A DNA stretch of 36,326 nucleotides from an uncultured Ignavibacteria bacterium. Its GTDB lineage: Bacteria > Bacteroidota > Ignavibacteria > Kapaibacteriales > Kapaibacteriaceae. The DNA lies in assembly GCA_903939735.1 (NCBI GenBank), contig CAJAIA010000045.1:1-36326 (forward strand), written 5' to 3'. The notes beneath the pieces were generated by a model. That model ran no database searches and had not been told where the DNA came from. It saw only the letters and a program-made list of their open reading frames with translations. Within the stretch, counting starts at the first letter, position 1. Each line of letters begins with the position of its first letter. Of the stretch, positions 3,501 through 30,203 are shown piece by piece. The translations under genes were made by a program, and so were the position numbers.

Positions 3501-4576
3501 GCATCGGTGATGCCGACTCTGTGACGCAGTACGTGCTAAAGGGCACGGGAGTTATTCCAACGTCTGCGCGTCTCAACGCTCGACTTTCCGCGACGGCATC
3601 TGCTGTTGCGTGTCAACGAGAGCGTATCGAGGTACTGATTCGCAACGAAGGGGATGGTATAGGCCGTATCGACACTGTCGAGCTAACCGATGGGCAGCGA
3701 CGTGAAGTCCTTTATGCTTCAGCAGCCGGACAGAACATTCTGCCAGGGGGCGAGCAGCGCTGGAATCTCGACTGGATCTTTGATCGGGCCTCGCCCACAC
3801 GGCTCTGGATGCGAGTGGTCGACTCTGTAGGTTCGGTGACAATCGACGCTGTTGATGTCCAGGTGACGCTGCCACAAGTTGCGCTTGCTCTGAACATCCC
3901 CGATGCACCGAGTCTCGTTGCGGGACCAACGGAGCTCCTGCTACAAGCTTCCCTGCAGATGCCGCAAGCAGTATCGACAGCGCCAGCCGTTGTTCTTAGC
4001 GTGCCCCACGAGCGTTTTGCCGCAACAAGCCAAGTCGTTCGGGTGATGGGCGTATCTCAGTTCGGATCAATCGACACATCCGTTTTCGCACAACAGACGG
4101 CTGACGGCATTCGGTTAACCTTGCCAGAGTGCCACGGCGCATGGGAAGTAACTGTTCGTGTGCCGGGAATGTGGCTCTGGCGCGACCCAGCACCATTCTC
4201 GTTTTCGGCCGCAATTGAAGCCTCCGAATGTTATGACGGAGCTGCAACCGTGCTCGATCAACTCCAAATTGCCCCCTGTGGAGCAGCAGCTCGAGTCATT
4301 CGGCTATCGAAATTGCCCTCGGTCACGGCTACCGTTGTGCGCATGCCCGTGCAAGAAGAGCTACATTTACGCCTTGAAACAACCGCTCCAACCACCGTCA
4401 GCATAGCTGTAGAGTCCCTCACAGGACAAAGTTTTCAGCTTGTTGAAGGTTTCTCTTTGCAAAAGGGGGTCGAGCATTGTAATTTTTCGTGTTCCGGGTG
4501 GGCATCTGGAGTTTACCTTGTGAGAATACAGGGTAGTTCTGGAGAGACGGATTGCAAAGTCATCATCGTCAACTAG
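596..4576 (+). CDS. Giant T9SS-exported surface protein, IgGFc-binding-like N-terminus, choice-of-anchor-D-like repeats
   Basis: The protein has 1326 residues. Residues 1-22 form a signal peptide (hydrophobic core ILFALTFFVAHAAA, cleavage before Q23). Residues ~30-480 resemble the IgGFc-binding N-terminal domain found in large secreted bacterial proteins: beta-rich, with the block NLPIAVISGHMRSGVP. The middle (~480-1230) is a string of Ig-like beta-sandwich modules of the ASPM/choice-of-anchor-D type, with phrases such as DVGDVRIGDTVCRRLPVINTG. The last ~75 residues have the layout of a T9SS type A sorting domain, ending GVYLVRIQGSSGETDCKVIIVN-like. Export across the outer membrane and surface attachment follow from that family knowledge. 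The gene begins 49 bp after the OstA-like gene without a strong Shine-Dalgarno. It is paralogous in plan to the protein at 8012-12529 but uses mixed codons. Ligand and function are unknown. Confidence 0.75.
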   Translation: MRCRHNCAILFALTFFVAHAAAQIERVLPRRGGSSLEGTSFVVGFMANEILEVGEDPRVQIFISSQVDATVTISSPLSSPYTYVIPANTVRVFSMNAMHVVNASEQIAPKAIFVDSDVPIVVYTLNSLALSTDSYTAIPTKHCGTDYFTVNRPTDWYKPGRTMNPLDRAPRVGEFMVMATEDATDVVIQPRVRTRGGRSAGQQFSVRLNKGDCYLVQAQATRHGGDDLTGSSISSNLPIAVISGHMRSGVPTDSTLSKDHLVEQLPPVTKWGRTYATAQFAQIVRPDVFRMVASRSNQTVRLTTSAGTSTFTLSAPGSWRDTSLKEPAYWTSDEPFLLTQFMSSSTSGAYGDPAMVIVPPVEQFVNQSMFQFPVLETTGLDNQQFFYFINVVAEASALSSLRVNTTPVTTIAPQIRTQTIPGTTLHWATLQLSEGAFQLQADTGLFSGVMYGTSIVDSYANMVGVAYDSIRPDDVSPPRYRVSVDCGEITGVVTDSSATTARLDNVHVIQSRTVNYRWSIAPPADDSSTVEIWAQVKDLWRDARIVFHAYDDQGNGRELLYTYDAPNVSVPPDVVIDATGAGLQCTTAVLYNRDSTPTTIVRATITGDARLSIAAPVIRDTILAPGDSLTITVCVRRTSDTSQARGTIIVEYPCRLQRFINVRTATVAALSTVPLDVGDVRIGDTVCRRLPVINTGPSTVIVTALLLQKSIPNFLIDASRLRLPVTLQPNDTLWIDVCFTPDRLGPFERSDTVRSLPDCGLRTTMRGRGVAPEIASIVIDWQQRRVGGAYDTTVVLRNTGSGWAVLDGWTAWSDSSVTTRGPSTSQRIAAGDSLVLPAKLMPRRRGRIDHVDTLAVDWKLHPTLTVRHVAVGVLPDVRGIDCDFGPVDLGRNKDSLVDHLVSGSDGGNVEVDVRSVRVLGPDSSAFDIPASLRDLRSIPSVDTIRARTQFTPVRSGLHVCAIEVRHNGRIGDADSVTQYVLKGTGVIPTSARLNARLSATASAVACQRERIEVLIRNEGDGIGRIDTVELTDGQRREVLYASAAGQNILPGGEQRWNLDWIFDRASPTRLWMRVVDSVGSVTIDAVDVQVTLPQVALALNIPDAPSLVAGPTELLLQASLQMPQAVSTAPAVVLSVPHERFAATSQVVRVMGVSQFGSIDTSVFAQQTADGIRLTLPECHGAWEVTVRVPGMWLWRDPAPFSFSAAIEASECYDGAATVLDQLQIAPCGAAARVIRLSKLPSVTATVVRMPVQEELHLRLETTAPTTVSIAVESLTGQSFQLVEGFSLQKGVEHCNFSCSGWASGVYLVRIQGSSGETDCKVIIVN

Positions 4577-6815: not shown

Positions 6816-7775
6816 ATGAATTCCTCGCCATCAGTACATCTTCGCGATGTTTGGGACCGGCTTCGTTCGAACGCGCTATCGGTCGACGTCTACACTCTTG
6901 CGATCATCACGCTCTACTCCGCCGCTGCGATCGTACTCTACACGAAGATCCCTCTCGCAACAAGCATCCTCTTTCAGAACGCCTTGATAGTTGGCGTCGC
7001 AGGAGCGTCGATTCTGCTTACGTCGATGACAGGGTTGCAGTTGTTCCGAATGGTGAGATACTTCTACGTTGTTCCCGTGATTTACATGATGTACAATCAA
7101 ACGCACCTGATTGTACACGCTGTGTATCCAAATCTCCTGTTCGACGATCTCCTTATTGCAGCAGATCGGTTCCTCTTTGGTGTCGATCCCACGATCTGGC
7201 TCGGGAATCTCGCGAGTCCGCTGCTCACGGAGTATCTGCAGATATGCTATTTCATGTTCTATCTCATGCCGATTCTTCAGGCAGTCGAGCTATGGAGACG
7301 CGGCGACCTCGACGCGCTGGCCTCCTTTGCCAGAGCTATGGCTTTCTGCTACTTCATCTCGTATCTCCTGTACTTTGCAATGCCGGCCATCGGACCCCGT
7401 TTCACGCTTCACGCATTCGATGCCATCTCCACCGAAATGCCGGGTCTGTTTATCACCGAACTTCTCAGAGGACTCGTCGATGCCGGCGGGGGAATCCCTC
7501 CTGGTTCGATCCAGCCTGATCGCTGGGTAAATAGAGACTGCATGCCTAGTGGTCACACAATGCTCACCATCACGAATGTGATCCTAGCATTTAGAAACCG
7601 AAGTTCACTTCGATGGGGCTTTGCTGTCATTGGTGGAAGTCTCGTATTCTCAACGGTTTATCTCAGGTATCACTACGCTGTCGATGTTGTCGTTGGCGCG
7701 GCACTCGTGGCCCTCTGTTTGCCCCTAGAGCCGACCGTTAATCGTCTGATCAGCAGATGGATAAAAACCTCATGA
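6816..7775 (+). CDS. PAP2-superfamily membrane phosphatase/phosphotransferase, Aur1-like branch
   Basis: This is a 319-residue integral membrane protein with six or more hydrophobic segments (e.g. residues 25-45, 55-72, 82-100, 140-157, 172-190, 266-300). PAP2 catalytic motifs are visible: CMPSGHT (242-248, motif 2) and STVYLRYHYAVD (279-290, motif 3 with Arg, His and Asp). The block MPAIGPRF (189-196) resembles the PAP2_3 group, which includes inositol-phosphorylceramide synthase (Aur1), rather than classic motif 1. Members remove phosphate from, or transfer head groups onto, membrane lipids. Substrates could be a phosphatidate, an undecaprenyl pyrophosphate or a sphingolipid; the sequence does not decide. 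It is the last gene of the HIT-rsmA-PAP2 run. Confidence 0.82.
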   Translation: MNSSPSVHLRDVWDRLRSNALSVDVYTLAIITLYSAAAIVLYTKIPLATSILFQNALIVGVAGASILLTSMTGLQLFRMVRYFYVVPVIYMMYNQTHLIVHAVYPNLLFDDLLIAADRFLFGVDPTIWLGNLASPLLTEYLQICYFMFYLMPILQAVELWRRGDLDALASFARAMAFCYFISYLLYFAMPAIGPRFTLHAFDAISTEMPGLFITELLRGLVDAGGGIPPGSIQPDRWVNRDCMPSGHTMLTITNVILAFRNRSSLRWGFAVIGGSLVFSTVYLRYHYAVDVVVGAALVALCLPLEPTVNRLISRWIKTS

Positions 7776-7799
7776 AGTTCACGTGGAAAAGTGTGAAAT

Positions 7800-7827
7800 G
7801 GAACTGTGTAACCTTTTTCACGGTTCC
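7800..7827 (+). terminator. Imperfect stem-loop after the PAP2 gene, possible terminator
   Basis: GGAACTGTG (7800-7808) and CACGGTTCC (7819-7827) pair over nine positions with one G-T pair, around a pyrimidine-rich loop, and are followed by GTGTTTTCG. It lies 24 bp past the PAP2 stop and could end that operon. It could equally be part of the regulatory leader of the next gene. Confidence 0.35.
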
Positions 7828-7847
7828 GTGTTTTCGTACTGTGGGGT

Positions 7848-8006
7848 GAACACTGTTCGGCCGTAACCCCATGGGAATATGTAGTCTACCAACATATCTT
7901 GGATATGTCTGGAATTGTACTATTTTACGCCCGTGCGCCACGTGCGCAATCAACCTGACAATTGACGTTGACGTAAACAAACCCATTTTTTACACGCCAG
8001 GAGAAA
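7848..8006 (+). promoter_or_regulatory. Leader of the giant surface-protein gene with dyads, tandem repeats and strong Shine-Dalgarno
   Basis: This is the largest non-coding stretch in the window (7776-8011, 236 bp). It contains the palindrome GAACACTGTTC (7848-7858) and three copies of an ATATGT-type half-site: ATATGT 7877-7882, then the dyad ACATATC-ttg-GATATGT 7892-7908. The AT-rich box CTATTTTAC (7920-7928) is also present 40 bp upstream of the gene at 596. Tandem repeats CGTGCGCCA/CGTGCGCAA (7932-7949) and TTGACG x2 (7962-7973) follow. AGGAGA (7999-8004) is a strong Shine-Dalgarno 7 bp before the ATG at 8012. The AT-rich box is a candidate promoter core; the dyads are candidate operators. 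No experimental start site can be inferred. Confidence 0.45.
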
Positions 8007-8011
8007 GTCCG

Positions 8012-11000
8012 ATGAGACTTGTTTCCACCACGATGAAATCGATGATCGCTGTCGTCATGATGACGATCCTCGGTATTGGGGTGATTTCGGCCAATGATGT
8101 GACCGAACGCCGTGGTACAATGGTTCTTACTGAGGGTCGCAAGTATATCGTTGCGTTCCCACAAGTATTGGCCAGCCCAACTGAGAAGCCGATGCCGCAG
8201 CCAATGCAGCTGCTCATCTCTTCGAAGACAAAGACAACCGTGCGCGTCCAAACACCTGCAGGCATCAACGATGCTGCACGTATGGACAAAGAGTACACCG
8301 TAGAGGCCAATAAGGTCCTCAAGATTCCGGTGTCCACGGCATACATGAACGTGGAGTCGGAAACCCGTAAGGGCTACGGCATCATGGTAACGTCGAAGAA
8401 GCCGATTTCGGTCTCGACGTATCAGGCGTGGATGGGTAATGGTGAAATGGCTCGTCACCTTCCAGTTGAGGGATGGGGCAAGAACTACTACTCAATGAAC
8501 TTCTATCAGGATCGCTACGGTAATAGCTCTGGCTACAAGTACCGTCCAGCACAGATCCTTCTGATCGCTGATAAGGACAACACTGTTGTTTCATACACAC
8601 CAACAGTTGATACTGAGGGTGGCGTCGAAACACCGAGCGTTCGCAAGGGTGCAACGCAGACGATCACGCTTGAGAAGGGTGAAACATTCCTGATCAAGGC
8701 GAAGATCAACGAAGACCAAAACAAGGAATGGTCAACTGACCTTTCGAGCACACTCATCCGCGCGAACAAGCCGGTAGGTGTCGTCTCTGGTCACGTGAAG
8801 GTGGCCATCATGCGCTACCCAGACGTGCTTCCTCCAACAGGTATGTTCGCTGCGGAAGCTCACTTCGTTCGTAGCAACGTTCACGACGCTATGCTTCCGC
8901 TTGAAATGGCTGGAAAGAAGTTCGTGACAACTCCATGTATGTACACACCAACACGCGTTGTTGGTCAGGCATCTGTTGAGTTCGGTATCGATGACGATCG
9001 CGGCGACGTGATCCGCGTGATTGCTCTCGAAGATGGTACAACAGTCAAGGCTATGCGTCAAGACGGTAGCGGACTGCTGAACAAGTGGATCCTCAAGAAG
9101 GGTGAAACACGTCTCGAGACTGCACTTGAAGTTGCAACGTACTGGGAATCAGACAAGCCGATCCTCATGGGTCAGTATGGCAAGTCATATGCTAAGATCC
9201 TTCCTCCGGCGTTCCTCCGCGATCGCTCAAAGGGAAGCAAGGATGGCGACGAAGCACAAGGACACCCAACTGTTGAGTCGGGTATGCCAATGTTGCAGTA
9301 CATCCCATCTGTTGATCGTTGGGCAGATTACGGTGTGTTCCACGCTCCAGAAGGCATGGACAACTTCTTTAACATCGTCTTCAAGTCATCTGAAATCGGC
9401 AAGATCAAGGTTGACGGTCGTTCGCTCACATCTGCGTTCGGTGGTGCAATGCGCCTCCTGAAGGGTACAGAGTATGCGTTCATCCGTACGCCAATCGGCG
9501 CTGGTGATCACTTCATCGAAACAACAGATCCAAACGTCCGCTGGGCTGCTTGGAACTACGGTTCGCTTGATGGTCTTCAGCAAGGTCGTGCATATGGCAC
9601 ACCTATCTCGATTGACATGACGATCCCATGTGATGATTCTCTTGCTGTCACAGAAGAACTCCTTTGCGGTGATGTTAAGGGTGAAGGCAAGATCCTTCCA
9701 GAAAACACTTCATGTGGTTCAATCTTCGCGGTCTATCCAGAAGAAATGAACAACTACGAACTCATCGTTGATGAAGAGTTCACAAGCGGCGACAAGAAGG
9801 TTACGTTTGAAGTCAAGGTCCTCGACAAGACAAAGGATGCGACAGCTACAATCAAGATTGTATCGCGCTCTGGCAAGTTCGTCGAGAAGACATACACGTA
9901 TATCGCTGACAAGATCAGCTGGACTCCATCGAAGCTTGAATTCGGTACGATTCCATTCAACACGCCAACGTCGATGACGTTCACAATCAAGAACGAAAAG
10001 ACTGATCGTCCAGTAAACATCCGCAAGATCCGCGTGATGGGTGGTGATCAGATCTTCTTGACAAATCCTACTGGCCCGATCACACTTGGTCCATCGGAAT
10101 CACGTGAAGTAACAGTTACAGCACAGATCAAGACAGCTCCACTTGTTGTTGACACAGTGATCTGTGAACTTGATTGCTATGACCAGAAGACAGTTGAACT
10201 CCGTGTTCGTGGTGAAGAGCCTAAGATCTACGTCAGCGACGTTGATTGGGGTACTGTTCCAGCAAGCACAGCTGGTATCGAGCGTACTGTCTCGATCCAG
10301 AATGGTAGCCGTGTTGTATTGAACGTGACTGGCTTCGATGAGAAGCTCCTCGACGGCAGCAACAACGGTAAGTTCTTCAACCCTGTCACGATGGACGGCA
10401 AGCCACTTAAGTCGGCATTCCCACTTGCAATTCCTGCAAATGGCTCGTACGACTTCAAGGTGACATACAGCCCTAAGGGTGAAGTAGCTGTTCCACACCG
10501 CGTGGATGTGCCATTCTACTCGAATGCAACTGGCGTTGACAACATCGCTGTTCTGACTGGTTCAGGTAACGATGTAAACGTTCAAGCGTACTCAACACCA
10601 TGGATTGAGCGCGTCATCGACAAGGTTCAGACATCTCAGAATATCAACGAGTACACACAACGTATCTCGTTTGAAAACCTCGGTGATCAGCCTGTCACAT
10701 ATGAAGCACCGGTCATCCGCGGTACAGACGCATCGAACTTCCGCCTGGTTGACAACGGTAACGTAGGTACGTTCCCAGTTCAACTTGTCAAGGGTTCTGT
10801 AAATCAAACGCGTTATGTCACGGTCGCATTCGTTCCAACGGAACTCGCAAACCGTGCTGCAGAGCGCAAGTACAATGCAGAAATCGTCTTCACGACAACA
10901 GGTGCTGATGGCGCGAAGAAGGATGTTGTTGCTGCTCTTGACGGAACAGCATGGCAGCCACAAGTCAAGGGCAATGATCTTGACTTCCCAGGTACAATGA

Positions 11001-12529
11001 ATGTTGGTGATGCTGCGAAGGTTCTCACAATCGCAATCTCGAATGAGCACTTCAACAATCAGTCAAACCCAACATCAGGTACACCAGCGGGTACATACAA
11101 CGTTGTGGTCACAGACATCAAGATCACAGACGCAGCAACGAAGTTTGAACTCCTGAATGCACCAACACCAGCAAACCCTTGGGTTATCAAGCCAGGTGAT
11201 GCTCCGGTTGAACTCCAAGTTCGCTTCGACCCATCTGTCTCTGGTACATTCGAGTCGCCATATGTGATCAGCACGAACGTTGGTACAAAGGGACAGGCGA
11301 CATACGAGCCTACCTATAAGATCACAGCACGTGTTCAAGGTGGTGAGTTCACGGTAACAGATGCAGATGCAGAGCAGTATGTCTTCAACACGAAGGACAT
11401 GGCTATCCGCATCAAGCACACTGAGAACCAGACAATTCGCTACAACATTGCTCAGCCAACAGGCCCTGATGCTTCACGCTTCGTCATTGTTGACCAATTC
11501 GTCGACGTTGCTCCAGGCCAAGAAGTTGCAGTTCCTGTGATCTTCATGCCTGACTTCGTTACAAAGCTCCGTAATGGTCAATCAGACCTCAAGGACGCAA
11601 ACAACGAGTGGACAAAGAAGGCGAAGACACAAGGCATCATGTGGCGTGGCAATAGCTTCGCAGCTGAAGTCGTTATCTCTGACGACCGTAATTCAGCGAA
11701 GACAAAGACAGCAACGCTTACAGGCAACGGTCTCTTCCTTGAGACAACGAACCTGATCAAGGATACATACACGGTGGCACCTGGTGCATCAGTTGACATC
11801 CCGGTTGAACTCAATGCAACACCTGAATCTGTTGATGCAGTTGGCATGACAGAACTCCGTGTGCGTCTGAGCTGGGATCCGAAGCTCATCAAGCCACGTG
11901 TAAATGCTGCTGACTTCATCACAGCTGGCCTCCAAGCTGAAGGCTGGACTATTCGCGCAACACCAATCAATGGCAAGCCTTCAGATGCATCGAACTCAGT
12001 TGAGATCGATCTCTGGGACGAGCGCGCAAATCCAGTTGCTATCAAGAACAACGGTACACCAGTAATCAGCGTGAAGTTTGATGCATTCCTTGATAAGGGT
12101 GTAGCGGGCACATTCACATCACCGCTGAACATCTACACGTACACTGTTGACCACGACAAGTCTGGTGATCGTAAGGATTACACGCTCTTCCGCGATATTC
12201 CTGGCAAGATCACAATCACGATGCCATGTGCTTCAACGACACGTCTCGTAGCACTTGGAAACTTTGAGTACGCTGTCAAGCCAATGCGTCCGAACCCAGT
12301 TTCGAACTCAGGTATCATCAGCTACTCAGTGGGTCTTACAGCGAACACACGTATCGTTCTCTTCAACAGCATGGGCCAAGAAGTTCAAACACTCATCAAC
12401 GATAAGCTCCAAGCTGGTAGCTATGAGATGACAGTTGACTTCTCGAATCTCCCTACTGGTACATACTTCTATCGCGTCATCTCTGGTCCGTTCTCGAGCG
12501 AACCACAAACTGTGACAGTAGTGAAGTAA
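8012..12529 (+). CDS. Giant T9SS-exported surface protein with IgGFc-like, choice-of-anchor-D-like and cohesin-like modules; strongly codon-biased
   Basis: The protein has 1505 residues. The ATG at 8012 is preferred over an in-frame ATG at 7871 because it follows AGGAGA and opens a signal peptide (MRLVSTTMKSMIAVVMMTILGIGVIS, split by no charge). The upstream extension is Cys-rich with atypical codons. Residues ~25-580 match the IgGFc-binding-like domain of its paralogue at 596-4576 (shared block NKPVGVVSGHVK). Residues ~680-1270 are several choice-of-anchor-D-like beta sandwiches (e.g. SKLEFGTIPFNTPTSMTFTI). Residues ~1280-1410 look like a cohesin-type fold (VAPGASVDIPVELNATPES). The end is a T9SS type A domain starting around KPMRPNPVSNSG, with LPTGTYFYRV. 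Codons are unusually uniform (AAG for Lys, ACA for Thr), as in very highly expressed genes. It is probably an abundant surface or matrix protein; its ligand is unknown. Confidence 0.8.
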   Translation: MRLVSTTMKSMIAVVMMTILGIGVISANDVTERRGTMVLTEGRKYIVAFPQVLASPTEKPMPQPMQLLISSKTKTTVRVQTPAGINDAARMDKEYTVEANKVLKIPVSTAYMNVESETRKGYGIMVTSKKPISVSTYQAWMGNGEMARHLPVEGWGKNYYSMNFYQDRYGNSSGYKYRPAQILLIADKDNTVVSYTPTVDTEGGVETPSVRKGATQTITLEKGETFLIKAKINEDQNKEWSTDLSSTLIRANKPVGVVSGHVKVAIMRYPDVLPPTGMFAAEAHFVRSNVHDAMLPLEMAGKKFVTTPCMYTPTRVVGQASVEFGIDDDRGDVIRVIALEDGTTVKAMRQDGSGLLNKWILKKGETRLETALEVATYWESDKPILMGQYGKSYAKILPPAFLRDRSKGSKDGDEAQGHPTVESGMPMLQYIPSVDRWADYGVFHAPEGMDNFFNIVFKSSEIGKIKVDGRSLTSAFGGAMRLLKGTEYAFIRTPIGAGDHFIETTDPNVRWAAWNYGSLDGLQQGRAYGTPISIDMTIPCDDSLAVTEELLCGDVKGEGKILPENTSCGSIFAVYPEEMNNYELIVDEEFTSGDKKVTFEVKVLDKTKDATATIKIVSRSGKFVEKTYTYIADKISWTPSKLEFGTIPFNTPTSMTFTIKNEKTDRPVNIRKIRVMGGDQIFLTNPTGPITLGPSESREVTVTAQIKTAPLVVDTVICELDCYDQKTVELRVRGEEPKIYVSDVDWGTVPASTAGIERTVSIQNGSRVVLNVTGFDEKLLDGSNNGKFFNPVTMDGKPLKSAFPLAIPANGSYDFKVTYSPKGEVAVPHRVDVPFYSNATGVDNIAVLTGSGNDVNVQAYSTPWIERVIDKVQTSQNINEYTQRISFENLGDQPVTYEAPVIRGTDASNFRLVDNGNVGTFPVQLVKGSVNQTRYVTVAFVPTELANRAAERKYNAEIVFTTTGADGAKKDVVAALDGTAWQPQVKGNDLDFPGTMNVGDAAKVLTIAISNEHFNNQSNPTSGTPAGTYNVVVTDIKITDAATKFELLNAPTPANPWVIKPGDAPVELQVRFDPSVSGTFESPYVISTNVGTKGQATYEPTYKITARVQGGEFTVTDADAEQYVFNTKDMAIRIKHTENQTIRYNIAQPTGPDASRFVIVDQFVDVAPGQEVAVPVIFMPDFVTKLRNGQSDLKDANNEWTKKAKTQGIMWRGNSFAAEVVISDDRNSAKTKTATLTGNGLFLETTNLIKDTYTVAPGASVDIPVELNATPESVDAVGMTELRVRLSWDPKLIKPRVNAADFITAGLQAEGWTIRATPINGKPSDASNSVEIDLWDERANPVAIKNNGTPVISVKFDAFLDKGVAGTFTSPLNIYTYTVDHDKSGDRKDYTLFRDIPGKITITMPCASTTRLVALGNFEYAVKPMRPNPVSNSGIISYSVGLTANTRIVLFNSMGQEVQTLINDKLQAGSYEMTVDFSNLPTGTYFYRVISGPFSSEPQTVTVVK

Positions 12530-16247: not shown

Positions 16248-17738
16248 GTGCCAGAGTTACGCCCCATATCGCTCCATCGCTCCCTCCTGTTCCTCATCAG
16301 TGTTCTTCTGATGGTCGCCCTTGGTGGTATGCAGGTACATGGAGCCGTTCAGCGAAGCCCCAAGCGGACAAAAAAGGCTGGGAAGACGATAACAAAGGCG
16401 TCTAAGCAGACTACCTCCAAAGGCTCCCGAAAAAAGGGGAAGCGAGCAAGTACTCGTTCTCGCAAACGGGCACGTGAGGTTCCGATTTCAAGTCTGTCGA
16501 GTATTCGCGAGCGCGACCTCGCACCAGGCGTTCGGTATACGATGTATCGATCCAACGGATCACGTCCGGTGGTAGCACACGTGATTTCTATGGATCGAAC
16601 GCTTCCTGGTACGGCGGTCCGATTGGTGAAGGGTGAAGATCATGGTGCTGGACTTGAGCGATTAGGCGAGCTCTATCGACGGTACGAAGCGTCGACCGAC
16701 AACAAGCTCTTCGCGTTGGTCAATGGAAACTTCTGGCGTGCTGTACGTAACACCATGATCGGTCCATGTGTGATCGACGGTGAAGTTGTTGAATTGAATC
16801 GATACAAGCGCTGGACGAGTGGCTTTCTGGACGTCAGGAATCAGCTGATGATTGATACGTTCTCGATTTCGGGAACGGTTGCGTTTGCTGGTCGCGCATT
16901 CACAGTATCATCGGTCAATCGCCGGGACGACGACGGTGTCGTCGTCTACAACAGTTATGGCGGTGAGCGCATACCGCATGTTAACACAAAGGAAATCGAG
17001 AAAGCCTTCTACGAAGCCGTAAAAGACTCCGTCTTTGCCGAGCGAGATTCGACGGAGCTTGCCTTGACGAAGGAGGTACTTCGCGGAGAAGTAGCGCGGG
17101 CGCAACGTGAAGCGTCCACCGAGTATCCAATGGTCAAGATTCGGGTACGCTACCTTCGACTGCCGTCGATCAACACGCAGATTCCGTGTGCAGTTCTGGG
17201 TGTAGATTCGGGTACGGTAACGATGCCTTTGCGAGGCGCAGTGATTTCGATGCCACGCTCGATGTACGTCTCAGGACAAGCTCCGCGTGTCGGCGATACA
17301 CTCATGCTGTCGTACAACACCAACGTGCATGCTACGACGCGTTTCATGAATGCGATGTGTGGCACACCTCGACTCGTTCGTGATGGGGTGGCAAAGCATG
17401 AGGCGCAACTCGAGGGTTCAACAGGGAAGCGCTTCATCAATCATAATCTGGCGCGCACGGCAATTGGTACCGACCGCAGTGGGAACCGTATAACCTTGGT
17501 GGCAATCCAAGCAGACGATCCTGGTCGTGGTACATCGGGCGCATCGCTGCAACAAACGGCGAAGGTGATGGTGCTCCTCGGGTGCTATCAAGCAATGAAT
17601 CTCGATGGAGGGGGCTCAACGGGCATGGTGGTCGAGAACGACCATGTCTTCTTTGATGGACAGGATCCTCTCACGCGACGTGTCGGTTTGGGAATCGGCG
17701 TCGTGCAGCTATCGAAAATCCTCCGGACGCCCCGTTAA
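16248..17738 (+). CDS. Exported phosphodiester glycosidase (NAGPA-domain) family protein
   Basis: The protein has 496 residues, with a GTG start. It is chosen because the hydrophobic signal/anchor (LLFLISVLLMVALGG, residues 13-27) directly follows; the internal ATG at 16311 would cut into it. Residues 36-77 are an exceptionally Lys/Arg-rich low-complexity linker. Residues ~95-490 match the NAGPA/DUF2233 fold: FALVNGNFWR, NTMIGPCVIDGEVV, ARTAIGTDRSGNRITLVAIQ and NLDGGGST (about 451-458), with GIGVVQ near the end. The family includes the human uncovering enzyme that removes GlcNAc from phosphodiesters and bacterial enzymes acting on envelope glycans. A cell-wall or exopolysaccharide substrate is inferred. 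It converges on, and overlaps by four bases, the NamZ-like gene. Confidence 0.82.
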   Translation: MPELRPISLHRSLLFLISVLLMVALGGMQVHGAVQRSPKRTKKAGKTITKASKQTTSKGSRKKGKRASTRSRKRAREVPISSLSSIRERDLAPGVRYTMYRSNGSRPVVAHVISMDRTLPGTAVRLVKGEDHGAGLERLGELYRRYEASTDNKLFALVNGNFWRAVRNTMIGPCVIDGEVVELNRYKRWTSGFLDVRNQLMIDTFSISGTVAFAGRAFTVSSVNRRDDDGVVVYNSYGGERIPHVNTKEIEKAFYEAVKDSVFAERDSTELALTKEVLRGEVARAQREASTEYPMVKIRVRYLRLPSINTQIPCAVLGVDSGTVTMPLRGAVISMPRSMYVSGQAPRVGDTLMLSYNTNVHATTRFMNAMCGTPRLVRDGVAKHEAQLEGSTGKRFINHNLARTAIGTDRSGNRITLVAIQADDPGRGTSGASLQQTAKVMVLLGCYQAMNLDGGGSTGMVVENDHVFFDGQDPLTRRVGLGIGVVQLSKILRTPR

Positions 17739-18967
17739 TCGTAGAGGAGAAACTGGCGTCGTTGCTCAACAAAAACGTCTACTCCGCGACGTCCAATTCG
17801 CTCGAGCTCGCCCAGTGTTGCGCCACGAATGAGTGCTTGAACAAGATCAGCACTGCCGCATGCCTTTGCAAACATTACCCCATGCTTCTGTGCTGGTAGT
17901 GAGTCTGGAAATGCCTCGGGAAATCGCGCTCGTATGCGCCACAATACGGTGAGTGCAGCATTGTACGGCGACCATGTACGCTGGGGCAGAAGATGGTAAC
18001 CATCGCAGATGGCGGATGCGAATTTGCCTGTTGTAGGACGGAATCGAGCTCTGGCAGCGATAACGCCGTAGCGTCGCAGATGCACCACGAGAAGTGAGTC
18101 GTCTGCGAACGATGCCGATCCTAGCAACGTGAACGGTGTTGATGTGCCCATGCCAATGGAGCAGGCACCAAGCTCGCCTACCATTCCCGTCAGAACATAT
18201 CCGCGAATGGCGTGAACGCTCGGAATGTTGGGAGATGTAGGATACCATGGACGTTCTATGTCTTCCCATGTCATGGAGCGCTTCCATCGTTTACATCTCA
18301 CAACGGTCAGACTGCATTCCCGCGCAGTACCGGTCGGACCCGGTGTAAGCCAGCCCTTTTCGTTCACCATTGTGGCCAGCTCACCCATGGTCATTCCATG
18401 GATGTAGGGGATTGGAATTCGTCCGATGAATGATCGAAGCTCATCGTCGGGAAGGTTGCCGTGCACAAGAACCCCGCCGAGTGGATTTGGTCGATCGAGG
18501 ATCATGCAAGGTTTGCCAGCCTCGGCGCACGCCTCGAGTACTTCAACCATCGTGGAGATGTACGTGTAGGAGCGGACACCGATATCTTGGAGGTCGACAA
18601 CGACAACGTCAGCATCAACAATCATAGCGCGCTCAGGACGACGAAGGCGTCCGTACAACGACACAACAGCCGTGCCCATGACGCTGTCGTCGGCCACGCT
18701 CACGCCTGCAGGAACAACGCCAAAGAAGCCATGTTCGGGCGCAAGCAGTCGCAGTGTCGTTACGTCGCGCCGTTGCAGAAACTCCTCCGCTGTATTCGTA
18801 CCGCGATAGGTCCGTGCGGCAGCGTGCGTTACAAGCACGACGCGTTTCCCACGCAGAAGAGAAAAGTCGGTGTCAATGAGATTGTCGATGCCAAACTTCA
18901 CTTGTGCAGACACACCAAGGGTGGACCACACAACGAGGGACAGAAGGATTGCGAAGCGAGGCGTCAT
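17735..18967 (-). CDS. namZ: Exo-beta-N-acetylmuramidase NamZ-like protein (DUF1343)
   Basis: The protein has 410 residues with a signal peptide (MTPRFAILLSLVVWSTLGVSAQ). DUF1343 hallmarks appear in order: GIDNLI, GKRVVLVTHAA (40-50), LAPEHGFFG (75-83), VVSLYG, DLQDIGVRSYTYISTM (125-140), MILDRPNPLGG (155-165), GRIPIPYIHGMTMGELA and WYPTSPNIPS. Members cleave terminal N-acetylmuramic acid from peptidoglycan fragments during turnover, in the periplasm or outside the cell. The usual THxTG-type segment reads THAAA here. Its ATG overlaps the xerD stop in ATGA, so it ends the minus-strand operon. The neighbouring exported glycosidase on the other strand suits a shared envelope-glycan theme. Confidence 0.9.
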   Translation of the reverse strand: MTPRFAILLSLVVWSTLGVSAQVKFGIDNLIDTDFSLLRGKRVVLVTHAAARTYRGTNTAEEFLQRRDVTTLRLLAPEHGFFGVVPAGVSVADDSVMGTAVVSLYGRLRRPERAMIVDADVVVVDLQDIGVRSYTYISTMVEVLEACAEAGKPCMILDRPNPLGGVLVHGNLPDDELRSFIGRIPIPYIHGMTMGELATMVNEKGWLTPGPTGTARECSLTVVRCKRWKRSMTWEDIERPWYPTSPNIPSVHAIRGYVLTGMVGELGACSIGMGTSTPFTLLGSASFADDSLLVVHLRRYGVIAARARFRPTTGKFASAICDGYHLLPQRTWSPYNAALTVLWRIRARFPEAFPDSLPAQKHGVMFAKACGSADLVQALIRGATLGELERIGRRGVDVFVEQRRQFLLYD

Positions 18968-24405: not shown

Positions 24406-26184
24406 TTATCGAGTCACGACTACACGCGATGTGCTTACAGCGCCGTTAAGACGCACGACAAGTGAGTATGATCCCGTTGCCAGTTGATCAACTGGGAGTG
24501 ATACGAGGCGAATCGACGGTGCAAGCGTTTCAGACACAACGTTGATCTGCTCGCCAGATGTTGTGAAGAGGTCAACACTCAACGTGCCACCCTGTTCAGC
24601 AACCACTTCCACCAGGCCTGATGTAGACATTGGGTTTGGCGAAACACGGACAGCCGAGGCCGAGAGAACGTTCTGTTCATTCACACCAACGGTTCCATCT
24701 GACCACAAGCGAAGTGTGACAGGACGGTGATCCGAGACAGTCGATGAGTAAGACGTGAGGTAGCGTTCTGGCGACTCGAGGTATGCGCGATAGTAGACAG
24801 GAACAAGGTTGCGGTTGATGATGATGTGATCGATGAACGAACGATTGAACCCGAGGTACGACGAAAGACCTTCTTGTTCGAGAGGAAGCGTAGTAGCCTT
24901 CCAACCTTGCGTGTCGTTGGTAAACACGCCATAGCATGAGGGAAGCGTTGAATCGATGTTCGTGCCGACGAGACGATCGTTAAAGTCGCCAAGGACAACT
25001 ACGGATGAGTCGTTGTAGAAGTCGCCCAGGTACGCATGGAATGTCTCAGCATCGGTCTTGCGTCGCTGATAGTCATTCTGTGCCGTCGCTGAATCTGTAG
25101 CCTTCGCATGAATGTTGAAGACGACCATTCGCTTACCACCGGCAATATCAAACGTCATACGCAGTGGGAAGCGTCCGTTTGCCCACGCTTGTGACCCGCC
25201 GTTTACTGCCAAGCCTGTTGATACAGGAGTGACTGTCGCTGGGTTGTAGATATAGGCCATCTTCTGATCAGAAGGAATGTCTGAATTGAAGATGCGACGG
25301 TAGCCACCAACGATCGAGTCGCTCAATGATGCAAGAGCTTCGTCTGTAAGTACTTCCTGCAGCGCGTAGATGTCTGCCTTAATCGTGTCCATGATCGTGC
25401 GAACGCGCTGGCGCTGTAGATCCTTGTTGAATGGACCACGTGTTGAATCCGCCCAGCCAAACCACTCGAGATTCCATGTTGTGATATCGATCGTGCGATT
25501 CTTGCTAACGGTATCAGCAACGATCGGAGGAAGTCCGACATCTTGTGCCAGACGTGGAAGAAGTTGGTATGTGCCACGGAATTGGCTCACGACGCCGATG
25601 ACGTCGATCTCACCAGTTGGGATCTCGAGATTATTGACACCGATCTCACATGCACGGTCGATACGGATAACGATGTCGTTCCCAGAGTTGTCCATCGCAT
25701 TGTAGCTGCGATTACCTTCGAAGCGACCGCTTTCAATCATCTTCAGGCGACGAATACGGACAAGTTGTCCCTCTACACCTTCGCCGATGAGTGGGATCGA
25801 GATTGAGCGAGCAGCTGGTTCGACGCGGGCGCCCGGTACGACTGTGAAGCGAAGAGCATTGCCTGTGAGCTGTGTAAGGCCCGTTCCAGGAGCTCCGGTT
25901 GTGTTGCCGAATTCAGCCAACGTGCCACTTTCAACAATCACTGAGTCGCCAATCTTCACGCCAAGCCGCATGTTCTCGTTGAACACCGCAATACCGCCTG
26001 TGCGGTCTTGCATGTACACAACATTCGAAAGCTCGATCGACGACGTAACACGTCCTGCGATCTTCGAGACTGTTGCACCGAAATCCAACTTCTTTGCATC
26101 AGCGATGGTTATTGGATCTTGCGCCAGCACAGCGATGCTCGTTAGGCAGAGCAGTGCGACGTAAAGAGAAAAGCGTTGCATCAT
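24406..26184 (-). CDS. T9SS-exported endonuclease/exonuclease/phosphatase-family protein
   Basis: The protein has 592 residues. The signal peptide ends near AQ22. Residues ~23-220 form an OB-fold-rich region (VVYMQDRTGGIAVFNEN, GDSVIVESGTLAEFGN...VIGVVSQFRGTYQLLPR), as in extracellular nucleases of the YhcR/DUF5689 style. Residues ~232-495 are a DNase-I-like EEP domain with WNLEWFG (Asn238), ALQEV (Glu277), NIHAKA (His359), LGDFND (Asp400, Asn402), SFIDHII (Asp452) and VSDHRPVT (Asp485, His486), a complete metal and catalytic set. Residues ~512-592 form a T9SS type A domain (VSPNPMSTSG). A surface or released nuclease or phosphodiesterase is expected. It is the last gene of the TonB-DUF4397 operon, 21 bp after the lipoprotein gene. 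Confidence 0.88.
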   Translation of the reverse strand: MMQRFSLYVALLCLTSIAVLAQDPITIADAKKLDFGATVSKIAGRVTSSIELSNVVYMQDRTGGIAVFNENMRLGVKIGDSVIVESGTLAEFGNTTGAPGTGLTQLTGNALRFTVVPGARVEPAARSISIPLIGEGVEGQLVRIRRLKMIESGRFEGNRSYNAMDNSGNDIVIRIDRACEIGVNNLEIPTGEIDVIGVVSQFRGTYQLLPRLAQDVGLPPIVADTVSKNRTIDITTWNLEWFGWADSTRGPFNKDLQRQRVRTIMDTIKADIYALQEVLTDEALASLSDSIVGGYRRIFNSDIPSDQKMAYIYNPATVTPVSTGLAVNGGSQAWANGRFPLRMTFDIAGGKRMVVFNIHAKATDSATAQNDYQRRKTDAETFHAYLGDFYNDSSVVVLGDFNDRLVGTNIDSTLPSCYGVFTNDTQGWKATTLPLEQEGLSSYLGFNRSFIDHIIINRNLVPVYYRAYLESPERYLTSYSSTVSDHRPVTLRLWSDGTVGVNEQNVLSASAVRVSPNPMSTSGLVEVVAEQGGTLSVDLFTTSGEQINVVSETLAPSIRLVSLPVDQLATGSYSLVVRLNGAVSTSRVVVTR

Positions 26185-26205
26185 GAACGTGATCCTGGGA
26201 GAGAA

Positions 26206-26883
26206 TTAGAAAATGCCGAGGAGAAGTTCGCCTGCTGTCGGTGCATCGTAGCTATACAGCATGTACGATGTTCCGGCTTGCAGCTGAACGTTGGTAAGTG
26301 TTGCCAGAACGGTTGTCGTGCCGCTTTCACGAATCTCAAAGGAGTAGGTTCCTGGCGCAAGTTGGGAATACTGCGCAGAACTTTTTCCGGGATCGAAGAA
26401 GTCTGGTGTGAGCTTGGTTTGACCATTCACCCAAACGTCGACTTCGTAGAATCCCACGCCTGTTGACCCGCCCATGTGCGTAAAGCGCACGAAGGCTTGC
26501 GCCGTACCAGCGGGTAGTACGGTGTCTTGAATCTCGCGACGGTATTCAATCACACTTGACGAATCACCCCATACAAAGAGCAGCACGCGTGCACTCCCAC
26601 CAAGTGTGAAGCGCAGGTCGGTGCGGTAATTGCGTGATGGTGAACCAAAAAAGAACTTCACCTGACGTCCTGCAGGAACAGAGGTAAAGTCTGATGCAGC
26701 TCCACGTGCGACATCGACATACGATGAACTGTCGATGGTGACGCGAAGTTGAGGCACGTTGTACGTTGTGTTAACAATGCGAAGTTGAGCCGGTTCTGGT
26801 GTTGGAAACGAGATCACACCGTCGCTGCATGCAACCAACGCAAGACACGAAGATGTCAGCAAGAGTCGAACAAGAAGCTTCAT
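26206..26883 (-). CDS. DUF4397-type outer-membrane lipoprotein
   Basis: The ATG at 26883 gives 225 residues opening with a lipoprotein signal MKLLVRLLLTSSCLALVAC, lipobox LVAC with lipidated Cys19. The longer frame from 26931 would overlap the TonB gene and bury the signal. The mature part is beta-rich with AQLRIVNTTYNVPQLRVTID, SDFTSVPAGRQVKFFF, AFVRFTHMGG...VDVWVNGQ, LAPGTYSFEIRESG and TYMLYSYDA-like phrases. These are typical of DUF4397, which carries two such beta-sandwich halves. Function of the domain is unknown. Its place between a TonB receptor and a secreted phosphoesterase suggests a substrate-binding accessory on the cell surface, by analogy to SusD-type lipoproteins though not homologous (inference). 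Confidence 0.75.
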   Translation of the reverse strand: MKLLVRLLLTSSCLALVACSDGVISFPTPEPAQLRIVNTTYNVPQLRVTIDSSSYVDVARGAASDFTSVPAGRQVKFFFGSPSRNYRTDLRFTLGGSARVLLFVWGDSSSVIEYRREIQDTVLPAGTAQAFVRFTHMGGSTGVGFYEVDVWVNGQTKLTPDFFDPGKSSAQYSQLAPGTYSFEIRESGTTTVLATLTNVQLQAGTSYMLYSYDAPTAGELLLGIF

Positions 26884-26894
26884 GGATGATGCCG

Positions 26895-29800
26895 TTAGAA
26901 CGTGTAGCGAACGCCAAGCTGCATTCGCCACCGTGAAAAGAAGTTGTCGGTGATATACACGCCAGGCTGATTGTTTGTTACTGGCTCGGTGTAGGTCATG
27001 CGCAGTCGACCTTGTGCATCGAACGGCTTGCCGTTGTTATCGAGCACCAGGCCGAACACATTCGCGCTCTGGAAGTCGACGAAGCGCTGCAAGCCCCATT
27101 CCGAGTTGAAGAGATTGAGCACATTCTGAACATCGAGTGAGAACTGAATCGTGTGGTCAGAGAATGCCGGGATCTGCTGTAGGATGCGGAGGTCGAGCAG
27201 GTTTACCCATGGTTCGCGGAGAACGTTGCGTGGGAGGATCTGACCTTGATACTGCTTGATCATAGGGTTGGCATCGATGAAGGCCATGATCTGCTGCCAG
27301 ATCTGATCTGGTGAACGGAGGTCAGTCGCATCGGTTGGTTGTGGGATGACGATCTTGGTGCCGTAGTCTTCTGGCTTTGGCACGTAGACCAGGTCGTTAC
27401 CGCCAGCTGCGTTATCCCCGTTGTAATCCTGCGCATACGATAGTGAGTAGGGACGTCCGCTATTGCCTGAGTAGAAGACGCCGATCGATGTCCAGATGTC
27501 CTTGTCCCACGTGATGCGATACGAGCCGGATACCGATATGCGATGGAGCATGTCGAAGCTTGAGTTACCCAGTGTGACGTTGTTTGGATCGATGGCGTCG
27601 GTGCTGGTCCACTGCGAAGTAGCGGTTGCTGCTGTCGATGAGTTAAGATCTTGCGTGCGACCGTAGGTGTACATCAGCATCACGCCGAGTCCTGGAATGA
27701 TACGATTTACTTCGTCTACGCGAAGCTGACCTGAGGCGCTGTACTGATAGCCAGCTGATCGGCTGCGTAAGAGGATTACCTGCGTGAATCGGCGATCAGC
27801 CAGAGAGTCTGCTGAGCCCCCTGCATACAGCGGACGTCCATCGAGAGGGGATACACCGATCAGCGTATCACCACCGCTAACAAAACGCAGCTTTGAGCGA
27901 CGGAGGTTGAGGTTGGCGTAATCGACTTGATTCAAGAACGATCCGTACATCCCTTCAACCGTGAATGTCACGCCTTGTGTGAGCTTGAGGTCTGTAGCCA
28001 ATGTCGATCGCCAGACTTGCGGTAGACGAAACTCTGTGTCGGTGATGTTGATTGCTGATGTATTGATGGGTAGGCCGGGATATCCCGGAGTACCTGGGCG
28101 AGGTGCTGGCACACGCAAGTCCCACGTGACGGGAATACCACCTGATGTGATTGGGTTCGGGAGGTTGTTACCGCCAAGCTCTGCGCGGAACAAATCAATG
28201 CCAGTGTTCGAGTATTGATTCGACAACCACACGGCCGCAACACGGCCAGTAAACACGCCCGTACCGCCACGCAGCTGCCATGTCTTGTCGCCCGAGATGT
28301 CATAGTTGAAGCCTACACGTGGCGAGAACATCAAGGTTCCACTTGGAACCTCACGCGTTGAGCGACCCGGGAATGCGCTCGCAAAGGCAGTGTTCTCGTA
28401 GGGAGTTGAAAGGTAAAGCGGCACATCAACACGGACGCCGCCCGTGAGTCGCAACAGGTCGGTTACTTGCCATTCGTCCTGCGCATAGAAGCCAAGCTGA
28501 AGCATGTTCCATGCAGCGCGTGGTTGCGGATTGCCTCCCGTGACGCTATCGTTAGCGTAGCTCACGCGGTAGTAGTTCGCCTGACCAACTTCGTATGCAT
28601 CAATCGTTGGGAACTGGTAGCTACCGTAGTAGTCCTGGATGAACAGGTTGTTGAAGCGCGAAAACTCGTTGTGCGTTCCAACGGTCACGGTATGATCACC
28701 AAGGAACCACGTAAGATCGTCGGTCAGAGCGATGAGTGTTTGGTCGAGCGCATTGGCTTGCGAGCTACGTTCTGGACCAAGGGCGACGTTCAGACCCGAC
28801 CCCACTTGGATGCGGACTTCGGGGAACGGGATGGGATTGCCCGATCCATCGGCAGGAAGGATTCGTCGATCATTCGTTTGTGTGTAGGATACCCGGAGCT
28901 CATTACTGAACTCTTGCGACAAAACGCTATTGAGCTGGAGCACTGTCTGATTGTTCACGCTCTCGAAGGTATTCATGCGGCTGAGAAGCGAGTAGTTCAG
29001 ATTGTTGCGCAGGAGATTACGATCCTGAATTCCGTAGGTGAAGTTGTGACGGAGCTGCAACTTGTGCGCATCATTGATGTTGTAATCCAATCGTGCAATC
29101 ATGTTGATTGTGTTGTTGCGCGTATTGGTGATTCCATACCCGCCCGCATCATATCCATACTTGCTGCGCGTTATGGCGATAATGCGGTCGAGATCCTGCG
29201 ACGGGACAGGGAAGTTGTTCAGAGCAGTAGGATCGTTGAGAGATACTTCAACAGGCGTCGAGCGCAGGCGCGCTTCGGCAGTTACGTGAAACAGCAGCTT
29301 GTCTTTGATCATGGGGCCACCCAAACGTCCGCCGAACTGGTAGTCGTAGAACTTGTCGAACGGACGCCGCGCAGCATCGGGGCTAACGCCAACCAGACTC
29401 TGATTGCGGCCATAGGCAAAGACCGATCCTCGGAACTCATTTGTACCGCCACGTGTGATGGCATTCACCAAGCCACCCGTAAAACCGCTCTGACGAATGT
29501 CGTATGGAGACACGTTCACGCGCAGTCGTTCAATAGCATCGAGCGAGAGGAAGTTTGAGTTTGCCTGTGATCCAGCAGTGCCTGCCGAACCAAGTGCGAA
29601 CACATCGTTTGCAACAGCACCGTCGATCTGGAAGTTGTTGAAGCGTGAGTTCACGCCCATGATGCTGATGCCTTGTAGTCCATCGCTACCAGCAGTTTGC
29701 GTTTGATTCGCATACGGATTGATGCGTGCGATGTCGCTGATGCTGCGGTTGATGGACGGCGCGGCAGAGATGGCTTGTTCGCTTATCGTTGAACCCGAAC

Positions 29801-30203
29801 CAGTGCGTCCTGGATCAAACAGCGGATCGCGATCAGCCGCGATCACAACTTCACTGCGCTTGCGCGTTGATGTACGAAGCTGGATGTTGACCGTTGTTGC
29901 TTCGCCCACATCGACTAAAATGTTGCGAAGGGTGTCGGCTTCAAAGCCGACGTACGTCGTGACGATCGAATAGGAGCCGGGCCGCATGCCGCGAATAAGG
30001 TACTGTCCGCGAGACTTCGAGATGGCTCCATAGATCGAGCCCGTGGATGTCGAGATAGCCTTGACCGTTGCTCCAACGAGGGGTACATCACCTTTTACGG
30101 CGCCTGTGATCGACCCAGTGGTTACACCTTGTGCATGTACGAGCGTATGTGCGCACAGAAAGAGAGCTGCAAGGACAACAGCGAAACAACGGGGCATGGG
30201 CAT
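26895..30203 (-). CDS. TonB-dependent outer-membrane receptor with carboxypeptidase-regulatory-like domain (Oar-like)
   Basis: The protein has 1102 residues with a signal peptide (FAVVLAALFLCAHTLVHAQ). Residues ~28-112 are a CarboxypepD_reg/Ig-like domain (GSITGAVKGDVPLVGATVKAI...GSYSIVTTYVGF). Residues ~125-260 form the plug (SINRSISDIARINPYANQTQ, ISIMGVNSRFNNFQIDGA, GGLVNAITRGGTNEFRGS), and the rest is a 22-strand-type barrel ending RMQLGVRYTF with terminal Phe. The layout matches Oar-like receptors, which import or export large substrates with TonB energy. An ATG two codons in (30197) is an alternative start. It heads the operon with the DUF4397 lipoprotein and the T9SS phosphoesterase and is divergent from the PP2C gene. 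Substrate unknown; nucleic-acid products are a context-based guess. Confidence 0.9.
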   Translation of the reverse strand: MPMPRCFAVVLAALFLCAHTLVHAQGVTTGSITGAVKGDVPLVGATVKAISTSTGSIYGAISKSRGQYLIRGMRPGSYSIVTTYVGFEADTLRNILVDVGEATTVNIQLRTSTRKRSEVVIAADRDPLFDPGRTGSGSTISEQAISAAPSINRSISDIARINPYANQTQTAGSDGLQGISIMGVNSRFNNFQIDGAVANDVFALGSAGTAGSQANSNFLSLDAIERLRVNVSPYDIRQSGFTGGLVNAITRGGTNEFRGSVFAYGRNQSLVGVSPDAARRPFDKFYDYQFGGRLGGPMIKDKLLFHVTAEARLRSTPVEVSLNDPTALNNFPVPSQDLDRIIAITRSKYGYDAGGYGITNTRNNTINMIARLDYNINDAHKLQLRHNFTYGIQDRNLLRNNLNYSLLSRMNTFESVNNQTVLQLNSVLSQEFSNELRVSYTQTNDRRILPADGSGNPIPFPEVRIQVGSGLNVALGPERSSQANALDQTLIALTDDLTWFLGDHTVTVGTHNEFSRFNNLFIQDYYGSYQFPTIDAYEVGQANYYRVSYANDSVTGGNPQPRAAWNMLQLGFYAQDEWQVTDLLRLTGGVRVDVPLYLSTPYENTAFASAFPGRSTREVPSGTLMFSPRVGFNYDISGDKTWQLRGGTGVFTGRVAAVWLSNQYSNTGIDLFRAELGGNNLPNPITSGGIPVTWDLRVPAPRPGTPGYPGLPINTSAINITDTEFRLPQVWRSTLATDLKLTQGVTFTVEGMYGSFLNQVDYANLNLRRSKLRFVSGGDTLIGVSPLDGRPLYAGGSADSLADRRFTQVILLRSRSAGYQYSASGQLRVDEVNRIIPGLGVMLMYTYGRTQDLNSSTAATATSQWTSTDAIDPNNVTLGNSSFDMLHRISVSGSYRITWDKDIWTSIGVFYSGNSGRPYSLSYAQDYNGDNAAGGNDLVYVPKPEDYGTKIVIPQPTDATDLRSPDQIWQQIMAFIDANPMIKQYQGQILPRNVLREPWVNLLDLRILQQIPAFSDHTIQFSLDVQNVLNLFNSEWGLQRFVDFQSANVFGLVLDNNGKPFDAQGRLRMTYTEPVTNNQPGVYITDNFFSRWRMQLGVRYTF

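Follow-up and report, generated by a model that had tools for sequence, protein, structure and literature searches.

The window analysed here (the whole stretch of 36,326 nucleotides) is part of a 2.47 Mb MAG of Candidatus Kapabacteria. Three genes are arranged head to tail on its minus strand, to which all coordinates of the trio refer, coding for an Oar-type receptor (henceforth REC, 26895..30203, 1102 aa), a DUF4397 lipoprotein (26206..26883, 225 aa) and a protein with an EEP domain (henceforth the EEP protein, 24406..26184, 592 aa). The intergenic gaps are as small as 11 bp (REC/lipoprotein) and 21 bp (lipoprotein/EEP), confirming the description of three closely spaced same-strand genes in an earlier note on this DNA. 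The start of the lipoprotein was placed at the ATG at 26883, the mechanical ORF beginning further upstream at a GTG. That the trio is a true, conserved operon we regard as practically certain. A scan of the window against Rfam gave no match, so the ligand is not named by a riboswitch or any other RNA ahead of REC.

REC comprises a signal peptide, a CarboxypepD_reg domain (PF13620, 56.7 bits), a plug and a barrel of the family PF25183 (OMP_b-brl_4), the latter scoring 194 bits against a Pfam gathering score of 30, which identifies the protein as an Oar-type receptor. The plug match is weak (23.4 bits, slightly below the Pfam value of 23.9). Comparison with NCBIfam gave no SusC/RagA model among the matches, and PF25183 remained the best family. 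Inspection by eye located a candidate TonB box at residues 117-123 (SEVVIAA, 29835..29855, minus strand), after CarboxypepD_reg and before the plug; EVVVTA is the consensus at this position across 11 REC orthologues. Only two PF25183 proteins are encoded in the source genome, REC and one other. This second Oar-type receptor (positions 7139-10483 of locus L119, G000:C11:4000-22000) has neither a DUF4397 nor a DUF5689 gene adjoining, and a SusD-like lipoprotein is found some kb away (2-1369 of the same locus).

The second gene of the trio codes for a protein with a lipobox (LVAC, with Cys19) and a DUF4397 domain (53.5 bits). The lipidation residue C19 is invariant across 25 orthologues, most of which also carry an acidic residue at the second position after the cysteine. 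Acidic residues following the lipidated cysteine recall the surface-export signals of Bacteroidota lipoproteins. The structure model (mean pLDDT 91.3) is all-beta, with two predicted Ig-like domains and not helical, ruling out a SusD fold as far as the prediction goes. Its best fold match was the extracellular domain of PepT2 (Z 15.4, rmsd 3.5, 179 aligned residues), followed by AlgF domains; matches to the modelled fold point to no ligand. The role of substrate binder that the earlier note had proposed for DUF4397 was therefore not borne out, and a literature search on DUF4397 returned nothing on its function. Pairing of DUF4397 with receptors does not hold as a general rule either, since the genome's two further DUF4397 proteins are located away from receptors.

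The EEP protein carries, after its signal peptide, a DUF5689 part (residues 41-216, 25537..26064, Pfam 43.4 bits), a catalytic EEP (DNase I-like) domain (residues 232-496, 24697..25491, Exo_endo_phos 38.2 bits in Pfam) and a T9SS type A C-terminal sorting domain (residues 514-590, 24415..24645). The sorting domain passes TIGR04183 narrowly (25 bits, cut-off 23), and Pfam's own model of the T9SS tail scores below its cut-off; in a profile search against solved structures the tail matched that of mirolase (8qb1). Together with the presence of SprA in the source genome (894.6 bits), the tail marks the protein as T9SS type A cargo. A set of catalytic residues (N238, E277, H359, D400, N402, D485 and H486) is invariant in 33 EEP homologues; we take these to correspond to N7, E39, H134, D168, N170, D251 and H252 of DNase I. 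The model built from the 33 homologues (mean pLDDT 86.7) has DNase I among its best structural matches for the EEP domain (Z 24.7, rmsd 2.6, 235 aligned residues). By fold and catalytic residues the protein belongs to the EEP superfamily, and what had been read from the letters alone, a DNase I-like T9SS cargo with a full catalytic set, stands. The fold by itself leaves the substrate unfixed, since TDP2, the mannosyl-6-phosphatase Bt3783 (Z 23.8) and sphingomyelinase (Z 22.7) match nearly as well as DNase I. The single-sequence search against solved structures gave no match, and the profile search added to the T9SS tail only one EEP protein (9sf9) near E 0.01. No paper was found in a literature search on T9SS nucleases.

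The DUF5689 domain, absent from the earlier note, proved the most informative part of the protein. In the secondary structure of the model, the element order b-b-b-a-b-b appears twice in succession, which, as a reading of topology only, resembles two OB-fold-like units. No fold match in the structure search covers this part; related DUF5689 proteins match the OB family PF01336 weakly, below the cut-off. A tandem OB-like part followed by an EEP domain is also the layout of ExeM/NucH, secreted or cell-envelope nucleases. In ExeM of Shewanella, two putative OB units precede the EEP domain and are required for activity (PMC6085458). The model for this group (NF033681) gives the strongest sub-profile resemblance of the EEP protein, but with 44 bits against a cut-off of 300 the protein at most works like ExeM/NucH. 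It differs from these nucleases in having no lamin-tail domain, in the T9SS tail that replaces their C-terminal membrane anchor and in sharing an operon with a receptor. Nucleic acid is more likely to be bound by this OB-like DUF5689 part than by DUF4397.

EEP orthologues are present in most of the 60 relatives that were compared. Family f1 shows the full trio in every case that the contig permits, with the same neighbours (RsmE, a SpoIIE-type phosphatase and ECH). The exception is G018 (locus L041), which has kept the EEP gene and lost REC and the lipoprotein between intact neighbours. Because f1 conserves the flanks too, finding the trio intact there proves little on its own. More telling are families f3 and f9, in which the trio occurs in the same order (REC-lipoprotein-EEP) amid other neighbours than in f1 (SpeA, for example, comes after EEP in f3), and the persistence of this order despite unlike flanks indicates that the linkage is selected. 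The gene linkage on which the earlier note had built its reading thus holds in relatives of f1, f3 and f9. The lipoproteins of f3 and f9 share only 16–25% identity with that of the window, but they occupy the same slot and are picked up by the family profile, and lipoprotein orthologues with E < 1e-60 occur only in the trio. The EEP gene is more widespread than the trio. It stands alone in f4, f7 and f10, and, considering also G018, it does not depend on this receptor. A REC-like gene without the lipoprotein is located elsewhere in f4 and f7, and in the loci retrieved for f2, f4 and f7 the more distant homologues of REC had no lipoprotein beside them.

Comparison with the near relative G005 revealed a divergent tract inside the operon. 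In a sliding comparison, identity drops between about 26.25 and 29.3 kb, sparing the plug part of REC and the EEP gene; the tract (26250..29300, minus strand, ends approximate) takes in the whole lipoprotein as well as the barrel of REC. Synonymous divergence from G005 is 0.22 for EEP and 0.25 for RsmE, against 0.96 for REC and saturation in the lipoprotein. We considered positive selection on the lipoprotein, but its high divergence comes with saturated synonymous sites, which recombination explains better. The tract is likely a replacement of the receptor-lipoprotein unit by a divergent allele, either in the window genome or in G005. The joint exchange of barrel and lipoprotein, seen in one genome pair, fits a physical partnership of the two.

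To place DUF5689 in a wider context, we used a phylum sample of 80 genomes, 38 of which encode the domain, with 49 DUF5689 proteins counted by hand. Nearly half of these (23 of 49) carry a nuclease-type domain belonging to one of three unrelated folds: EEP (18), PLD (4, each with two HxKxxxxD motifs) and Endonuclease I (1). Several DUF5689 proteins carry carbohydrate-type (starch- or chitobiase-type) domains. An operon-like arrangement with a receptor was found for 17 of the 49 (nine flavobacterial-type genomes, G098, G101, five trios and one different receptor in G076), and 27 have no receptor nearby. In the nine flavobacterial-type genomes a CarboxypepD_reg barrel of ~940 aa precedes the DUF5689 protein, eight times directly and once with a gene between. 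Receptors of the same barrel family (profile scores of 197 and 222 bits, hhalign E 1e-74) also occur in G098 and G101. The G098 receptor is paired (L190, 2104-7170) with a DUF5689-Endonuclease I-T9SS tail protein whose gene begins 3 bp further on, and in G101 a DUF5689-PLD-T9SS tail protein follows after 12 bp. A search of 395 genomes for the DUF5689-Endonuclease I fusion recovered it at full length only in G098, the other matches covering the nuclease domain only; with two candidates scored per genome, this count is a lower bound.

Receptors at these loci can also change. Family f15 has an Oar receptor two genes away from DUF5689-EEP, SpeA lying between them. This receptor shares 38.8% identity with the source genome's other Oar protein and 35.8% with REC, and as it is about equally close to both, its orthology with REC is not established. 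G070 is a congener of G065 and G075, and its locus, which includes SpeA and DUF5689-EEP, is otherwise syntenic, but the Oar receptor is gone and a member of the flavobacterial receptor family (252 bits; L184, G070:C33:14000-32000, 1403-4024) occupies its slot. This locus is a natural receptor replacement.

Among characterised systems, a pair of genes from Riemerella anatipestifer comes closest. The two share an operon: RA0C_RS04915 encodes an outer-membrane protein with CarboxypepD_reg, RA0C_RS04920 a DUF5689-DUF5017 protein. Markerless deletion of either abolishes natural transformation; in the speculative model of the authors the pair provides a DNA binder and a DNA channel (PMC8459023). The gene order is that of the nine flavobacterial-type genomes above. 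Mutation of tonBA in the same species inhibits transformation, and iron acquisition is not reduced (PMC8383284). As in the trio, a CarboxypepD_reg barrel shares an operon with a DUF5689 protein, although here a lipoprotein gene lies between them. The Riemerella pair, however, has no DUF4397 lipoprotein and no nuclease in RA0C_RS04920, whereas DUF5689 is here fused to EEP and a T9SS tail. The barrels belong to different families: REC was not matched by the A5 profile (built from flavobacterial receptors, and standing in for the Riemerella barrel by domain make-up and gene order), and in hhalign only 66 N-terminal columns align. Even so, the pair is a better precedent for the trio than the SusCD systems, whose operons likewise combine a receptor with a surface lipoprotein and a hydrolase that is exported, but whose SusC and helical SusD are replaced here by an Oar barrel and two predicted Ig-like domains, and whose glycan enzymes are absent. 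Homology of the trio to Sus-type systems fails on the same two points, the Oar-type barrel and the predicted Ig-like lipoprotein.

The reading that we prefer is that the operon makes a cell-surface unit for processing and uptake of DNA. The EEP protein would cross the outer membrane via the T9SS, its DNase I-like domain would cut nucleic acid on the cell surface or close to it, and the two OB-like DUF5689 units would hold the strand. The Oar-type receptor and its putative surface lipoprotein partner would then move the DNA pieces into the periplasm with energy from TonB, either for nutrition (phosphorus, nucleosides) or as a first step of transformation. Nuclease activity, DNA binding, the receptor-lipoprotein complex and DNA import are all steps that we infer. 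Three unrelated nuclease folds attached to DUF5689, the adjoining receptors and the need for a DUF5689 protein in Riemerella make nucleic acid the likeliest substrate, and we are fairly confident that the EEP protein acts on it. Being kept together and resembling the Riemerella transformation pair, the trio probably handles extracellular DNA. Import of DNA pieces by the receptor and lipoprotein, argued by analogy, has an even chance of being right, and we place the reading as a whole (surface nuclease plus TonB-powered import) at the same evenly balanced level. The earlier proposal of surface degradation and import of DNA or phosphodiesters survives in part, the Riemerella genetics pointing by analogy to DNA uptake (PMC8459023), without DUF4397 as the binder. 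Given that a nuclease would cut transforming DNA, feeding on DNA seems likelier than transformation. The source genome does encode TonB, ComEC and a short HhH protein, but these are widespread and no proof of competence.

Several observations speak against parts of this reading: by profile comparison the barrel family of REC is not the Riemerella type; the EEP fold, as modelled, also covers phosphatases and lipid phosphodiesterases with similar structural scores; the EEP gene persists alone in some relatives; and among the DUF5689 proteins, more than half lack a nearby receptor and some carry carbohydrate-type domains. Alternatively, the EEP protein might be a secreted nuclease for biofilm or defence, with the receptor and lipoprotein importing something else and the genes merely co-transcribed. 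ExeM, a cell-associated nuclease of EEP plus tandem OB layout, does serve biofilm formation (PMC6085458), orthologues without the other two genes occur in f4, f7, f10 and G018, and the likely recombination tract stops between the lipoprotein and EEP. Mere co-transcription sits poorly with a trio order that survives three different genomic settings and with receptor-DUF5689 pairs that recur across the phylum, and we consider this explanation possible but rather doubtful.

The breadth of the EEP superfamily, in which phosphatases and sphingomyelinase reach similar Z, and the starch- or chitobiase-type domains of several DUF5689 proteins would also suit a phosphatase or a lipid or sugar phosphodiesterase whose product is imported by the receptor. 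Such an activity seems unlikely to us: DUF5689 occurs with Endonuclease I and PLD as well, the shared theme being cleavage of phosphodiesters, mostly in nucleic acid; the strongest sub-profile resemblance is to ExeM/NucH; and transformation of Riemerella requires a DUF5689 protein (PMC8459023). The adjacency of the REC and EEP genes also brings to mind Oar of M. xanthus, a CarboxypepD_reg and Oar-type receptor that needs TonB to secrete the protease PopC (PMC6434023), in which case REC would export the EEP protein as cargo. For the M. xanthus exporter no operon with a lipoprotein or T9SS cargo is reported. The EEP protein has a T9SS tail of its own in a genome with SprA, and EEP genes persist without this receptor, which makes export through REC highly improbable.

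On the passage of DNA through the outer membrane of Bacteroidota, a genetic screen pointed to a barrel with CarboxypepD_reg together with a DUF5689 protein (PMC8459023). The operon and its relatives link DUF5689 with outer-membrane receptors and with nucleases that have three unrelated folds, so that DNA becomes the most likely cargo, a proposal that can be tested in cultured relatives. The operon is a new form of a barely known kind of system, and both DUF5689 and one group of DUF4397 lipoproteins gain a testable role. More tentatively, Bacteroidota and Kapabacteria might hold a family of TonB-powered DNA importers, made of a CarboxypepD_reg barrel and a DUF5689 surface protein with an exchangeable nuclease (EEP, Endonuclease I or PLD) or none. 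Forms without a nuclease would serve transformation and forms with one DNA feeding, and the Kapabacteria form would use a fast-changing DUF4397 lipoprotein as receptor partner.

Other genes of the window may be mentioned here. A NamZ-type exo-beta-N-acetylmuramidase (DUF1343; 17735-18967, minus strand) is encoded ~5.4 kb away from EEP, a position retained in f1; RA0C_RS09020, which Riemerella requires for transformation, belongs to the same DUF1343 family. On the plus strand there are a protein with a phosphodiester glycosidase (NAGPA) domain (16248-17738) and two very large proteins with IgGFc-binding-like domains (596-4576 and 7871-12529), the second of which has a T9SS tail.
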